This document shows positions 43,905 to 49,502 of a stretch of DNA of 54,520 bases, in pieces (within the stretch, counting starts at the first letter, position 1; each line of letters starts with the position of its first letter). Source of the stretch: an uncultured SAR86 cluster bacterium (lineage in GTDB: Bacteria > Pseudomonadota > Gammaproteobacteria > Magnimaribacterales > AG-339-G14); NCBI GenBank assembly GCA_902595715.1, contig CACJRI010000002.1:117449-171968 (forward strand), in the 5' to 3' direction. Under the pieces are notes generated by a model that made no database searches, was not told the origin of the DNA, and saw only the letters and a list, made by a program, of their open reading frames with translations. The translations under genes were made by a program, and so were the position numbers.

Positions 43905-43980
43905 GCCCAGATAGCTCAGTCGGTAGAGCAAAGGACTGAAAATCCTTGTGTCGGTGGTTCGATTCCACCTCTGGGCACCA
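43905..43980 (+). tRNA. tRNA-Phe (GAA), with encoded CCA
   Basis: 76 nt folding as a full cloverleaf: acceptor arms GCCCAGA/TCTGGGC, D arm with AGCTCAGTCGGTAGAGC, anticodon loop CTGAAAA with GAA at 43938-43940, and T arm GGTGGTTCGATTCCACC, then ACCA. It is the only complete tRNA in the window. Its 3' 47 nt recur exactly twice downstream. Confidence 0.98.
43934..43980 (+). repeat. Attachment-site core, copy 1 (within tRNA-Phe)
   Basis: The 47-nt block from the 3' side of the anticodon 5' stem to the CCA end. It is identical to 44835-44881, and its last 46 nt equal 47202-47247. The crossover of tRNA-targeting tyrosine integrases usually lies in such a block. Confidence 0.9.
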
Positions 43981-44145
43981 CTCAAACCCTTTAGAATCAA
44001 TACTTTCAGACGATTTCAGTAGTTAGACACAGTTTGAAAGATTTGTGCACAGTCGTGCACATTTAGAATATTGTGCAAAAATACATGATTGATAGAAAAT
44101 ATTAAAAAGATAAAATCAATATAAGAAAATTAATACATATTAGTT

Positions 44146-44760
44146 ATGAAAAATTTACTTTTACTCTCACTTTTTTTCACTGGTGTAATTTCTACAAATG
44201 ACGATGTGTGGGAACCTACTAATGATTATCATCTTAAATGTTTTAATTCGATAGTTCTGTATTCAAAAAATAAAGAGGATTTCAAAGATAATCAGGAAAT
44301 TTATGCTCACTACGATTTTGAGAAAGATAAGAAAGATATAACTTTTCTAAGAGAATATTTCGATTCTTGTTCCGATCTCGGCGACAACTGTTTAAAAAGA
44401 GATGATTTAATTGTGCTTGATAAAGTTACTAAAATTTTTTCTAAATTTGAATGGGAAAGACTGATTTCTAATAGAAAACTCTCTAACGATAAAGTGCATT
44501 CTTTCACTAAGCAATTTACTTGGAACATTGGAACAGATACAGGCGGCGCCACGAAATATACAGAAGGTCACCCCCTAGGACTTTTTGATCCGGTACATTT
44601 AGATAGAGAAAATCTTACTTTAGGATTTAAAAAGTCGACTTATCAGTGCAGTTTAATAACTGCTGCCGAATATATAAGTGGGAAGAGTGCTCTAAATGAA
44701 AAACGAGATTCTTTGAATAAAGAACTTGTAGAAAAAAGAAAAAACAAACTAAGAATTTAA
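44146..44760 (+). CDS. Predicted exported protein of unknown function
   Basis: 204 residues, not recognised. Residues 1-16 (MKNLLLLSLFFTGVIS) look like a signal peptide. The mature part is charged, with five cysteines and a TKQFTWNIGTDTGGATKYTE segment; the last 30 residues are Lys/Arg-rich and probably a helix. It is the only gene of cassette A and is followed after 3 nt by a hairpin terminator. A periplasmic or surface role is inference from the leader only. Confidence 0.7.
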   Translation: MKNLLLLSLFFTGVISTNDDVWEPTNDYHLKCFNSIVLYSKNKEDFKDNQEIYAHYDFEKDKKDITFLREYFDSCSDLGDNCLKRDDLIVLDKVTKIFSKFEWERLISNRKLSNDKVHSFTKQFTWNIGTDTGGATKYTEGHPLGLFDPVHLDRENLTLGFKKSTYQCSLITAAEYISGKSALNEKRDSLNKELVEKRKNKLRI

Positions 44761-44763
44761 GCA

Positions 44764-44789
44764 TTTCATGCAAAGCATGAAAGGTTTTT
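44764..44789 (+). terminator. Rho-independent terminator of the cassette A gene
   Basis: TTTCATGC-AAA-GCATGAAA forms an 8-bp stem with a 3-nt loop and is followed by GGTTTTT. It begins 3 nt after the stop codon at 44760. Confidence 0.7.
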
Positions 44790-44823
44790 GGAGCAAGAAT
44801 TTTTAAATCCAATACCTTGCTCC
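44790..44823. repeat. Inverted repeat next to att copy 2
   Basis: GGAGCAAG (44790-44797) and CTTGCTCC (44816-44823) are perfect 8-bp complements with an 18-nt AT-rich spacer. It lies 11 nt before att copy 2. It could be a protein-binding site or a second hairpin. Confidence 0.55.
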
Positions 44824-44834
44824 ATAATGAGAAT

Positions 44835-44881
44835 GACTGAAAATCCTTGTGTCGGTGGTTCGATTCCACCTCTGGGCACCA
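44835..44881 (+). repeat. Attachment-site core, copy 2 (tRNA-Phe 3' end)
   Basis: Exact 47-nt repeat of 43934-43980, including anticodon GAA, T arm and CCA. The 5' half of a tRNA is missing, so it is a remnant of integration rather than a gene. Confidence 0.92.
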
Positions 44882-44910
44882 TTAATACAGCATTTTTTAA
44901 ATTTGAATTT

Positions 44911-44946
44911 TATGAACACTTATGAACACTAGTTTGAGTGTTCATA
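44911..44946. repeat. Arm-type repeats, left end of cassette B
   Basis: TATGAACACT occurs at 44911-44920 and again at 44921-44930, and its inverse AGTGTTCATA at 44937-44946. The same decamer recurs only at the other end of the cassette as far as I can see. Confidence 0.75.
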
Positions 44947-44985
44947 TTTTTCACATAGTTGCATTAGTTATGCTATTTTTTCAAC

Positions 44986-45540
44986 GTGAAAAAATTTATA
45001 TATGCAACAACCAGTTTTAATGACATTGAAAAAAATGACGTTGGGATTGTTGAAGATGAACTCTCAAATAATGAATTCAGAGTTAAATTCTTGAGATCGA
45101 ATAAAATTATTAGTGTCGGAAAGGGTCAATTAGATATATTTGATATTGAAAAGGTTGGTGATACTTTTGATCATAAAGTCTGTGACAGATGTTTTAAAAG
45201 ACTTCCAATTAATGATTTTCCAGATAACAGAATAAAAAAAGGTGGATTAATTACTAAAAGACCTTCATGTAAAGGTTGTAGAAAAATTAAAGATGGAAAA
45301 GGAATTTCTAAGAAAGATAGAGAAAGGTGGGAAAAAACAAAACCTAAAAATTATGATTTATTTGAATGTCCTATTTGCAATAAATCATCAATTGTCGGAA
45401 TAAGTAAAATTGTATTGGATCATAATCATCAAACAGGTGAAGTGAGAGGATATTTATGTGAGAGTTGTAATACTGGTATTGGTAGGTTTGATGATGATCC
45501 AACCATAGTTATCAGAGCAAAAGAATGGTTAGAAAATTAA
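44986..45540 (+). CDS. Putative type II restriction endonuclease, Hpy99I-like (beta-beta-alpha-Me, endonuclease VII type)
   Basis: 184 residues, GTG start. An N-terminal beta-rich part (about 1-60) is followed by two zinc-binding repeats, each with two CxxC pairs: Cys66/69 with 95/98, and Cys128/131 with 158/161. The second repeat holds VLDHNHQTGEVRGYLC, with Asp145, His146 and, after it, Asn162. Hpy99I as I recall it has the same plan (barrel, two zinc repeats, Asp148, His149, Asn165), with the same spacing. The C5 methyltransferase ends 4 nt into this gene on the other strand, as expected of a partner. A homing or junction-cleaving nuclease is the alternative. Confidence 0.82.
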   Translation: MKKFIYATTSFNDIEKNDVGIVEDELSNNEFRVKFLRSNKIISVGKGQLDIFDIEKVGDTFDHKVCDRCFKRLPINDFPDNRIKKGGLITKRPSCKGCRKIKDGKGISKKDRERWEKTKPKNYDLFECPICNKSSIVGISKIVLDHNHQTGEVRGYLCESCNTGIGRFDDDPTIVIRAKEWLEN

Positions 45541-46553
45541 AACAATGAATCAAGTATCGATTTTGCTATGTGTCTAGACAACAAAGGAGGGACAGAGTTT
45601 CCTATCATTTTATATTTGTTTGGAATGCTTTTCTCAATGAATTTAAAAGTGTCTGGGTAACTTTGAAATCTTGCAATTTCCCTTACTGAGTACCTTCTAT
45701 CTTCCAAAGGATGAAGAATCCCACTATTTTCAGGTGAAGATGTGGCAGTAATTGTTCCCATTATCTCTTTTCTTGAAAATCTCCTATAAAAATTTGGAGA
45801 TCTATATTTCTTAATATTATCTCTAATTCTTTGATGCCTTGGAGCAAGTTCATCATATGGAACATCTTTCCATGAACCACCTTCCTTAATGAACTTTACA
45901 ATGTTTTTTGAGGAAGGAGGAAGATCCCATACTTCTAAATTCTCACCCTTAGGAAGTTTCATGGAAATTACATCACCAACAGTTGGAGTCTCTATTCCTA
46001 AAGGTCTAGGAAAAAAATAATCTTTTTTCAATGATTTGAGATAACAAACGATGAAAACTCTAAATCTATTTGAAGGAACCCCAAAATTAGCAGCATTAAT
46101 TAATTCAAATTTTGTTATGTAACCTAGATTTTCCATTTCGTCTGAAAATCTATCAGTGAGAAGTTTGCCATCCTCATCTTTAGAAGATAAAAAACCTCTC
46201 ACATTTTCAAAAACTACGACCTTGGGTTTCTTTTTTTGATTTGTCACAACATTAATTACTTCAAGGAATAAGTTTCCATCTTTATCTTTTGTAGACTTCC
46301 TATTTCCTGCATTAGAAAAAGGTTGACAGGGTATGCCTGCAAGAACCACGTCTCCTTGAGGAATATTGGTTTTATTTACCTTAACAAGATCATCTATGAC
46401 GATCTCATGTTTAAGATTATATTCATATGTTTCCTTAACAGATGACCATATATCATTGGCATACACAATCTCATAACCTGCTTCTTTAAAACCAAAATCG
46501 AATCCTCCGCACCCAGAGAAAAGACTTATTATTTTCGGAGATGTTCTTGCCAT
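45537..46553 (-). CDS. C5-cytosine DNA methyltransferase
   Basis: 338 residues with the motifs in order: I IISLFSGCGGFDFGF, IV AGIPCQPFSNAG with catalytic Cys76, VI VVFENVRGF (Glu116), VIII PSNRFRVFIV, IX REIARFQSYPD and X IGNSVPP. The target-recognition region, about 190-270, is variable and does not reveal the site. It is convergent with the putative endonuclease and should protect host DNA from it. The 103 nt before its start hold AT-rich possible promoter sequence. Confidence 0.95.
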   Translation of the reverse strand: MARTSPKIISLFSGCGGFDFGFKEAGYEIVYANDIWSSVKETYEYNLKHEIVIDDLVKVNKTNIPQGDVVLAGIPCQPFSNAGNRKSTKDKDGNLFLEVINVVTNQKKKPKVVVFENVRGFLSSKDEDGKLLTDRFSDEMENLGYITKFELINAANFGVPSNRFRVFIVCYLKSLKKDYFFPRPLGIETPTVGDVISMKLPKGENLEVWDLPPSSKNIVKFIKEGGSWKDVPYDELAPRHQRIRDNIKKYRSPNFYRRFSRKEIMGTITATSSPENSGILHPLEDRRYSVREIARFQSYPDTFKFIEKSIPNKYKMIGNSVPPLLSRHIAKSILDSLF

Positions 46554-46656
46554 TTAAGATTTTTTGCAAATTTATTATTTTTATACACTTTAACTTTTAA
46601 ATGGTAACTTGAGTTTAAAAAAAACCAATAATAACTAGATAATATTTTTAGAATTG

Positions 46657-46959
46657 TTAAAACCAATTATGTGTATCGTATTCGATCTCATATTTATCAC
46701 ATAATTTTCTTAAGTCAGCAACGGTAAATCTTTCTTCAAAGGTGAACCCCTTCCAAAAGCAACAAAGAATAAATTTTGCTACATGTTTTTGGTGAATCAT
46801 CATAAAGTATTCATACTCATCGGTTCCCCAAAATTGCTTTACCCCATCACCAAGATCTTGCTCAGTAAAATGTAAGTTGCCTTTATCATCCCAATCAACA
46901 TGAACATTGTGATTAATCTTCCCTTGAGGAAGTTCGTATTCGCATTTAAATACTTGCAT
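46657..46959 (-). CDS. Small protein of unknown function in cassette B
   Basis: 100 residues, not recognised. I chose the ATG at 46959 because GGAG lies 6 nt upstream; two in-frame ATGs farther up (46980, 46971) are less well placed. It is rich in aromatic and acidic residues (HVDWDDKGNLHFTEQDLGDG, EYEYFMMIHQKHVAKF) and has no membrane segment or helix-turn-helix. It lies upstream of the methyltransferase on the same strand. It could be a regulator or accessory protein of the system, but nothing shows it. Confidence 0.65.
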   Translation of the reverse strand: MQVFKCEYELPQGKINHNVHVDWDDKGNLHFTEQDLGDGVKQFWGTDEYEYFMMIHQKHVAKFILCCFWKGFTFEERFTVADLRKLCDKYEIEYDTHNWF

Positions 46960-47087
46960 ATTTTTCTCCATAAGAAACATACCCGGAATTGAGTATATAA
47001 ATGTGAGTAATGGAATTTGAAATAAGAAGATATTTCTTTCTTTACACTTACTTATATGGGGATTTTTTTATGAAATTCAATGCGATA

Positions 47088-47153
47088 TGTGTTCATAATC
47101 TAGGGAAATCTTTCATCCTTTCTCATAAAAATATGAACACTAATATGAACACT
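47088..47153. repeat. Arm-type repeats, right end of cassette B
   Basis: TATGAACACT at 47132-47141 and 47144-47153, and the inverse TGTGTTCATA (one mismatch) at 47088-47097. They mirror the left-end set at 44911-44946 and lie 48-114 nt inside att copy 3. Confidence 0.75.
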
Positions 47154-47201
47154 AGAGTCTGGAACATGCACTAACAAAGGGTTTCTTTTTTCGAGTCATG
47201 C

Positions 47202-47247
47202 ACTGAAAATCCTTGTGTCGGTGGTTCGATTCCACCTCTGGGCACCA
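47202..47247 (+). repeat. Attachment-site core, copy 3 (tRNA-Phe 3' end)
   Basis: Exact 46-nt repeat of the tRNA-Phe 3' part, from the anticodon stem to CCA. It separates cassette B from the second methyltransferase/nuclease pair. Confidence 0.92.
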
Positions 47248-47298
47248 TTTATATTTATATTAATAACTTCTTTTATATTAATTATTTATAATTAACTT

Positions 47299-48297
47299 AT
47301 GAAGTATCCATATTTTGAAAAAATTGATTGTAACGAGTGGATGCGCAAACAAAAACCTAAGTCTATTGACTGCGTCATAACATCGCCGCCATATAATCTT
47401 GATATCAAATATTCAAGATATAAAGATAATATGTCTAGAAAAGACTATTTAGATTGGTTCAATCAGGTTACAAAAGAAATTAAAAGAGTTTTAAAAGATG
47501 ACGGGCATTTTTTTTTAAACGTAGGGTCAATTAATTCAGATCCATATGTGGCCATGGATGTTTGTAATGAAGTAAGAAAAGAGTTTGTTTTGCAAAATAA
47601 TTTCACTTGGGTAAAACATATTGCTGTGCATGATAAAGGCTATGGACAATACAAACCAATAACTTCCAAAAGATATACTAGTAATACCACTGAGAGCATT
47701 TTTCATTTTACAAAAGATGGAAATGTCGAAGTCAATAGACTTGCTATTGGTCAAAGAAATAAAACGCATGAAAAATATCCTGAACTATATAGTGAAAATA
47801 GACACCGCGCTGTTGCGAGAAGAAAAGTTTCTAAAAAGCTTGGTTTTTCAAACTATAAATCTTTTTTAGAAAGCTCGTCAGAAAAAGAAAAAAAAGAATT
47901 TGAAGTTATTCTCAAACAGGTTATGAAAGATGATCCCTATGATCCAAATAAACCAAAATGTATTGGCAATGCATGGTTTATTCCATACATTCCAACGAGT
48001 AAGCTTTCAAAAAATATTGGCGCAAAAAGTGATCACAACTTCAGAGAAATTAGCAGAGGTAATCACCCAGCGACCTTTCCTCTCCAACTGCCGATACAGT
48101 GTATTAAATTTAGTGGAATTAAAAAAGGAAGCATTGTTTATGATCCTTTTGTGGGAACTGGGACAACGGTCCTAGCTGCAAAAATATTAGGAATGAAGGG
48201 AGTTGGCAATGATATAGATGGTGATTATTTAAATTTTGCAAAAAAAAGAATTATTGCAGAAACTAAAGAGATACAGCAGGAGTTGAACTTAATTTAG
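47299..48297 (+). CDS. Site-specific DNA methyltransferase (m4C or m6A, beta class)
   Basis: 332 residues. Catalytic motif IV TSPPYN is at 28-33 and the SAM-binding motif I, DPFVGTGTT, at 282-290; this order defines the beta class. The region between (about 140-250) is likely target recognition. TSPPY occurs in both m4C and m6A enzymes, so the modified base is open. The next gene is convergent with a 4-nt overlap, probably its nuclease partner. Confidence 0.92.
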   Translation: MKYPYFEKIDCNEWMRKQKPKSIDCVITSPPYNLDIKYSRYKDNMSRKDYLDWFNQVTKEIKRVLKDDGHFFLNVGSINSDPYVAMDVCNEVRKEFVLQNNFTWVKHIAVHDKGYGQYKPITSKRYTSNTTESIFHFTKDGNVEVNRLAIGQRNKTHEKYPELYSENRHRAVARRKVSKKLGFSNYKSFLESSSEKEKKEFEVILKQVMKDDPYDPNKPKCIGNAWFIPYIPTSKLSKNIGAKSDHNFREISRGNHPATFPLQLPIQCIKFSGIKKGSIVYDPFVGTGTTVLAAKILGMKGVGNDIDGDYLNFAKKRIIAETKEIQQELNLI

Positions 48298-49085
48298 ATT
48301 TTTTTTATCCAATTTATAACTTCTTCTGTATTACCTGCAAAAACTTTTGATCCTGATGAAATATTCTTTCTTATTTTTTTAGTTTGAGCTTCGATAAACC
48401 TTCCATCAAGCTGTGCAATGAAATAATCATTGGAGTTATTTTCCAAAATAAATTCCTCTGAATCACTAATAAAGTGTTGTGTTTCAATAATTACATTATC
48501 CTGATGGCCGCCACCAACTTTTGTATACTTTTGAAAAATCCAAATATTTGCTGATCCATTTGTTCCAAAGGTATCTATATCTTTTCTAGTCTTTTGGGGA
48601 TCATTAATAAGATATTCATCTTTAGACAAAATCTTAGCAGCGTAAACCCATTTACTAGGTTTACATTTATAAAAATTAAAGCCAGTAGATTGGAGCCCTT
48701 CATTTAACATTTTTCTTTGGACTTGTTCTTCAACAGACTGCCTAGTTGAATCTTTACAAAAATTAATTTGCAGCCACTCGCTAGCATTTAAATATTCGTC
48801 TGCCATTTTTTTTATATGAAACCATGAAATATTTTCTGGGGAATCTAAACCATAAAGTATATGGTTCTTTGTTAATCTGCTTGGAATAGTTGTAAGTATC
48901 AATCTTTCTAATTCTTTATTTTCAGAGCTGAAATCTTTAAATGATTTATATTCTTTTTCATCAATTTCAATAATTTCTTTCCATAAATTAATTGCTTCTC
49001 TGAGATTGCTTCTATTGGTCTCCTGTCGGCTTATATCAATATTTTTGGCACCATTTCTTGAATTAGTTATTAAAACAACTGACAT
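48294..49085 (-). CDS. Putative type II restriction endonuclease (unrecognised family)
   Basis: 263 residues with no family I can name. Assignment rests on position: it is tail-to-tail with a lone DNA methyltransferase, sharing 4 nt, just like the pair in cassette B. Possible catalytic residues are acidic groups in GGGHQDNVIIETQHFI and YFIAQLDGRFIEAQTKK, which could be a PD-(D/E)xK core with Gln in the Lys position, but I cannot prove it. No membrane segment or signal peptide. Confidence 0.55.
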   Translation of the reverse strand: MSVVLITNSRNGAKNIDISRQETNRSNLREAINLWKEIIEIDEKEYKSFKDFSSENKELERLILTTIPSRLTKNHILYGLDSPENISWFHIKKMADEYLNASEWLQINFCKDSTRQSVEEQVQRKMLNEGLQSTGFNFYKCKPSKWVYAAKILSKDEYLINDPQKTRKDIDTFGTNGSANIWIFQKYTKVGGGHQDNVIIETQHFISDSEEFILENNSNDYFIAQLDGRFIEAQTKKIRKNISSGSKVFAGNTEEVINWIKKI

Positions 49086-49124
49086 ATATACACATTAACA
49101 TTAATTGATTTAAAAAAAATTGCT

Positions 49125-49502
49125 TTAAGCTTTTGCCCTGAGGAAATAAAAAGTAATAGCTGCTGCAACAAATTCAAAAAACATAAAAAATACAAATACC
49201 ATATCTGGTGTTCCGTCTAGAATTAAACTAAGAGCTCTTCCTAAACCAATCCCGAGCATAAAAACAAACATGCACCATAAAGCAGGAACCGTTAGACTTT
49301 TATTAAAAGCCCCTGAAATCCATAACAATACACAACCAATATATAGACCCATTACAGCTCTAAAGATATTGGATAAATTATTATTTGCTACTTCAATTCC
49401 ATAAAGAACGGGCAGAAACTCTTGAGGGTTAAGCCCATATCCCAAGGCAGCAGGAAATACCCCAAGAGAAATAAATAATAGAAAATATGATTCTTTAGTC
49501 AT
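49125..49502 (-). CDS. DUF4345 family membrane protein
   Basis: 125 residues with four membrane segments. NIFRAVMGLYIGCVLLWISG and LGIGLGRALSLILDGTPD are typical of DUF4345. Function unknown. It is the first gene beyond the accessory region that looks like ordinary chromosome; its upstream 99 nt separate it from the divergent CoA-transferase gene. Confidence 0.8.
   Translation of the reverse strand: MTKESYFLLFISLGVFPAALGYGLNPQEFLPVLYGIEVANNNLSNIFRAVMGLYIGCVLLWISGAFNKSLTVPALWCMFVFMLGIGLGRALSLILDGTPDMVFVFFMFFEFVAAAITFYFLRAKA

Follow-up and report, generated by a model that had tools for sequence, protein, structure and literature searches.

Islands that lack a recombinase are numerous in streamlined marine genomes, and their mode of movement is unclear. 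The tRNA-Phe locus of an uncultured SAR86 bacterium raises this question in compact form. The window, the whole stretch of 54,520 nucleotides analyzed here (G000:C2:117449-171968), belongs to a SAR86 genome of 1.21 Mb in 27 contigs that is 83% complete, and the sole tRNA in it is a tRNA-Phe (gaa). Next to this gene, an initial annotation had described two tandem segments that lie between identical copies of the tRNA 3' end and encode no recombinase. How could such segments have entered, and could they still leave?

Core repeats and extent of the foreign block

The 46-mer ACTGAAAATCC...GGGCACCA, identical to the last 46 nt of tRNA-Phe, is found exactly at 43935-43980, 44836-44881, and 47202-47247, and its expected number of occurrences in shuffled sequence is 0. 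Copies 1 and 2 have one extra base (GACTG) in common. The three copies enclose interiors of 855 and 2320 bp. Copies 2 and 3 have no 5' half and are ruled out as functional tRNAs; an assembly artefact is unlikely because other genomes have the same cassette ends and cargo. Searches of both bounded segments with Pfam, PHROGs, and, on all six frames, an HMM built from SAR86 integrases returned no recombinase, in agreement with the annotation. The locus thus displays an intact tRNA and direct repeats of its 3' end on both sides of each segment, supporting the proposal that site-specific elements which target tRNA genes use these repeats as att sites; the integrase that a tRNA-targeted tyrosine-integrase element would itself encode is missing from the segments. 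The features of the locus are as follows.

43905-43980, + strand: tRNA-Phe (gaa), the integration target, holding the first core copy (43935-43980)
43981-44835: cassette 1, class II ends, 855 bp, no integrase
44040-44063, + strand: left direct repeats of cassette 1, TTTGTGCACAGTCGTGCACA, kept in L142, L153, L169, and L277
44146-44760, + strand: 204-aa protein with a signal-peptide-like start, no family
44790-44823: right-end inverted repeat of cassette 1, GGAGCAAG...CTTGCTCC, kept in class II right ends
44836-44881, + strand: second exact core copy, 47 nt in common with the tRNA from 44835
44882-47201: cassette 2, class I ends, 2320 bp, no integrase
44911-44946: left arm-type-like sites TATGAACACT, at 44911 (+), 44921 (+), and 44937 (-)
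44986-45540, + strand: HNH/Endonuclease VII-like nuclease, matching a PADLOC Type II restriction enzyme model
45537-46553, - strand: C5-cytosine DNA methyltransferase
46657-46980, - strand: h107, a 107-aa orphan recurring near cassette right ends and at other SAR86 loci
47089-47097, - strand: inverted copy of the arm word, sequence GTGTTCATA
47132-47153, + strand: right arm-type-like sites TATGAACACT, at 47132 and 47144
47154-47201, + strand: conserved class I right end, from arms to core
47202-47247, + strand: third exact core copy, an exact 46-mer repeat
47248-49112: third segment, two genes, no closing core copy
47299-48297, + strand: N6/N4 methyltransferase of the third segment
48294-49085, - strand: restriction-endonuclease-like gene of the third segment
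49113-49502: resumption of the chromosomal backbone, which adjoins tRNA-Phe in empty-site relatives
49125-49502, - strand: DUF4345 gene of the backbone

Eight relatives of the same genus (L044-L051, from G001, G015, G004, G010, G006, G003, G014, and G011) have an empty site, in which tRNA-Phe is joined directly to a homologue of the window from 49113 onward with 87-90% identity. Judged by the point at which these relatives resume, the foreign block spans 43981-49112 and consists of three segments. The two bounded cassettes of the initial annotation stand, its right boundary at 47247 is corrected to 49112, and a third segment is added. The annotation had named alignment of relatives as a check on mobility; the empty alleles exclude a locus that is identical in all relatives. 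Other inserts occupy the tRNA-Phe site in L043, L021, and L052, so that both presence and content vary at one chromosomal site, as in additive islands.

Because its closing tRNA copy is absent, segment 3 must be a remnant or have entered in another way. The annotation had offered accretion of decayed islands as one explanation of the locus; segment 3 can fairly be called decayed, and this perhaps holds for cassette 1, but cassette 2 keeps both ends. In L043 (G005) and L021 (G009), a 2.2-kb segment of related sequence on the backbone side likewise has no closing tRNA copy and parallels segment 3.

Matched words at the cassette ends

In cassette 2, the subterminal 10-bp repeats at the left end are matched by those at the right. 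Measured from its left edge, TATGAACACT occurs at 29 and 39 bp in direct and at 55 bp in inverted orientation; from the right edge, it occurs at 70 and 58 bp. This layout resembles that of the arm-type sites of an integrase, and the putative arms flank the core in pairs.

The same anatomy recurs in other SAR86 genomes. The tRNA-Phe core is present in 160 of the 203 SAR86 genomes searched, about 50 of which have two or more copies. From the fetched loci we collected 47 distinct att-bounded tRNA-Phe segments of 0.65 to 9.5 kb, most of them 0.65-6 kb; because the set comprises one genome per species, picked in part by the class I pattern, its proportions are not population frequencies. Restriction-modification genes are a common cargo, and they also dominate the cargo in the window. 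The HMM of SAR86 integrases detected an integrase in 3 of the 47 segments only, namely L022 (382 aa), L025 (494 aa), and L273 (461 aa).

Matched repeats at both ends were found in 19 of the 47 elements, mostly at nearly the same positions, usually about 28, 38, and 55 bp from the left edge and about -70 and -58 on the right. The word itself differs between elements and is matched within each: at least eight different arm words occur (TATGAACACT, TATGAACAGT, TTTGAATACT, TTTGAACAGT, GGTGAACAG, TGTCCCCA, TAACACACT, AAGTCATCA, and GTGAACCTA). With a threshold set after seeing the data (K>=8), a shared end word of at least eight bases with at least four occurrences was found in 16 of the 33 elements of the first set, compared with 0.15% of dinucleotide shuffles, 0% of interior pairs of the same elements, and 7.8% of left and right ends taken from different elements, a figure that includes pairings with a common word. 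The TGAAYASY pair was seen at tRNA-Phe att ends only throughout the fetched loci, which total 2.6 Mb. Mainly because the three integrase-bearing elements L022, L025, and L273 have the same arm layout as the integrase-free ones, we infer that the end repeats are arm-type sites of an integrase. Class I right ends were found by pattern in 13 of the 203 SAR86 genomes (reversed control, 0) and in 2 of 369 genomes sampled at the level of Gammaproteobacteria, both from the SAR86 order.

Cassette 1 is built differently. Its left direct repeats read TTTGTGCACA/CGTGCACA, its right inverted repeat (GAGCAAG...CTTGCTC) lies 12 to 45 bp from the core, and no matching words, hence no paired arms, were found at its two ends. 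The inverted repeat recurs in the class II right ends of L101, L179, L183, L276, L277, and L286. Both ends of cassette 1 occur together in L142/L288, in the second segment of L286, and in L277, and singly in L169, L101, L179, L183, and L276. Given this recurrence, cassette 1 belongs to a second group with conserved ends, whose mode of movement is less clear.

Several further segments were observed. An older 1.8-kb cassette with possible metal-response genes, CsoR/FrmR-like by eye, is conserved in two genera (L023:3730-5550, L020:3296-5116, L026, L027, and L028). Some genomes keep the right tRNA copy of this cassette intact, and others (L026, L027, and L028) show 4-8 mismatches in it, lending some support to the earlier argument that perfect repeats speak against long decay. 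One-armed cassettes of 0.65-1.2 kb (L281, L283, L298, L299, and L020:2067-3249) have TAACACAC-type repeats at the left only. Each contains just one gene, which in most of them begins with a signal-peptide-like sequence and stops no more than about 20 bp short of the right core; aberrant excision or gene capture may have produced these cassettes. The array L245:9277-12460 (G114), in which backbone-like sequence follows tRNA-Phe directly and appears again after the third copy, reflects either a rearrangement or an assembly effect. Copies of h107 occur in the window (46657-46980), L015:9794-10117, L016:9605-9928, and L030:8100-8408; in L015 and L016 they lie away from tRNA-Phe, beside a gene for a nuclease-like protein of ~310 aa. 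For h107, no match was found in Pfam, PHROGs, or IMG/VR, and its AlphaFold model (pLDDT 77) has no PDB match below E 0.001.

Probable movement in trans and its alternatives

The bounded segments are probably non-autonomous tyrosine-integrase cassettes that are moved in trans. The core site would be the region from the anticodon loop to the 3' end of tRNA-Phe, to which each cassette would bring its own subterminal binding sites. The cassettes would be inserted and excised in trans by a tyrosine integrase that comes either from a phage infecting the same cell or from an autonomous element such as those of the L022/L025/L273 type. As each insertion would restore the tRNA, cassettes could accumulate in tandem. 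The initial annotation had already suggested such movement of cargo-only elements, and it is supported as the best explanation by the paired arm-like words, the empty sites, and the three comparisons that follow.

First, L153 (G129) and L142 (G140) differ by the exact presence or absence of a 2884-bp element plus one 46-bp core copy (2930 bp in all) between tRNA-Phe and a class II cassette, in flanks that are 95% and 97% identical. Second, over 1666 bp the L118/L279 element, which comes from a different family (G081), matches cassette 2 with 90% identity, and the two methyltransferases share 93% protein identity, whereas the neighboring MutY and Fe-traffic proteins are only 34% and 49% identical. 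This contrast is strong evidence that cassette 2 was transferred horizontally between families. Third, the integrase-free L272 (3.3 kb) and the integrase-bearing L273 (8.5 kb), from two genomes of one genus, both carry GTGAACCTA arms, agree over much of their final 130 bp, and are likely a pair of dependant and helper.

Among the SAR86 loci examined, no integrase with class I or class II ends was found. A helper resident in the window's genome, 83% complete as it is, was rejected: its only two recombinases are of the XerC/XerD type. Most carrier genomes likewise have XerC/XerD-type recombinases only, and because of this the helper appears not to be resident in the window's genome or in most carriers. 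This search was prefiltered, and for G017 a single match was reported, although this genome has the L022 integrase in addition to a housekeeping recombinase; divergent integrases may therefore be overlooked. Both the helper in trans and activity at the present day are what we infer from these patterns.

Pattern searches of IMG/VR for the 46-mer, the class I end, and the arm pair returned nothing, and its 24-mer matches are mostly complete tRNA-Phe genes, the few without a 5' half having other T-arm/acceptor ends. Relatives of the L022 integrase were found neither by pattern searches of IMG/VR nor among phage records. G047:C1:61934 fits the class I core pattern but has no arms or tRNA 3' end and is taken as a chance match. 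L016 (G046:C6) is a larger island that combines h107 with a 454-aa integrase and several DNA methyltransferase-like genes; a role for it as helper is not supported, as a tRNA-Phe gene was not detected there.

The main rival dispenses with an integrase: homologous recombination between tRNA-Phe copies, with 46-76 bp of identity, would move the cassettes after DNA uptake or transduction, and their ends would be relics of old integrase-driven insertions. The dearth of resident helpers in most carriers and the identity of tRNA copies across genera fit this explanation, as does the mosaic makeup of the cassettes. L118 matches cassette 2 in the left 1.67 kb only and differs in the right third, and L190/L244 share the right-most 247 bp of the window's cassette at 91%, so that the cassettes are mosaics; the element L285:1365-4083 (G112), with unlike arm words (TATGCACAGT left, TATGAACACT right), is a probable recombinant. 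We nevertheless consider this explanation unlikely, since it leaves unexplained why words match within elements, differ between them, and keep a fixed spacing. Recombination through the tRNA copies could also act alongside an integrase.

A narrower version of movement in trans, whose probability overlaps with that of the general one, holds that a specific phage packages the cassettes as its satellites and also supplies the integrase. Small size, defense cargo, and the missing integrase would suit satellites, and phage satellites have been described from the sea (PMC10803314, PMC11389934). However, capsid, packaging, or replication genes were not recognized among the cassette proteins scanned, most elements measure only 0.65-6 kb, and the att was not found on viral contigs in IMG/VR; this version is considered unlikely. 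That the segments are immobile remnants of once-autonomous islands that lost their integrase is highly improbable: segment 3 without a closing att, the unlike ends of cassette 1, and decayed right copies in segments of some relatives point that way, but both ends are retained in cassette 2 and in 15 further two-armed elements without an integrase, different families share cassette 2 DNA, and L153/L142 form an exact presence/absence pair.

Relation to known elements

The occurrence of similar cassettes across the SAR86 order suggests a shared pool of hitch-hiking genes that depend on a foreign enzyme. More tentatively, SAR86 may harbor an order-wide pool of MITE-like tyrosine-integrase cassettes, in which a tRNA core and matched pairs of arm sites enclose largely defense cargo and the many arm specificities follow different helper integrases. 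If so, streamlined cells would trade defense genes without keeping a recombination enzyme. The arm words hint at a way in which abundant ocean bacteria could swap restriction-modification systems, and paired, co-varying words offer a signature with which integrase-free cassettes can be recognized, grouped according to the specificity of their helpers, and assigned to integrases.

Cis-mobilizable elements (CIMEs) and integrase-less genomic islands are flanked by att sites and mobilized by the integrase of another element; CIMEs are usually deletion derivatives of one ICE. The SAR86 cassettes share the att flanks and may be mobilized by a foreign integrase, but they form an order-wide family with many arm words. 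Hitch-hiking elements in general have been described, and MITEs and CALINs are also non-autonomous and use an enzyme in trans (PMC11389934), but their ends are transposase ends or attC, whereas the SAR86 cassettes have a tyrosine-integrase core and putative arm sites in a tRNA. Tycheposons are tRNA-targeted as well, occur in streamlined marine bacteria, and carry exchangeable cargo; as cited in PMC10872708, they have a tyrosine recombinase and measure 4-200 kb, whereas the SAR86 cassettes have none and are mostly 0.65-6 kb.

Additive flexible genomic islands at tRNA genes have been reported for Alteromonas (PMC4119200) and, with 20-bp repeats at tRNA-Lys, for Ca. Methylopumilus (PMC10872708). 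These islands share the tRNA landing site, the repeated 3' tRNA fragments, and strain-variable gains and losses, but in the sections of these two sources considered here neither a paired arm-site anatomy nor an integrase-free family with matched ends was found described. The open-licence literature searched likewise yielded no description of matched, diversified arm sites on integrase-free cassettes. Additive islands anchored at tRNA genes are known; the family of integrase-free cassettes with paired arms looks like a new variant on this theme.
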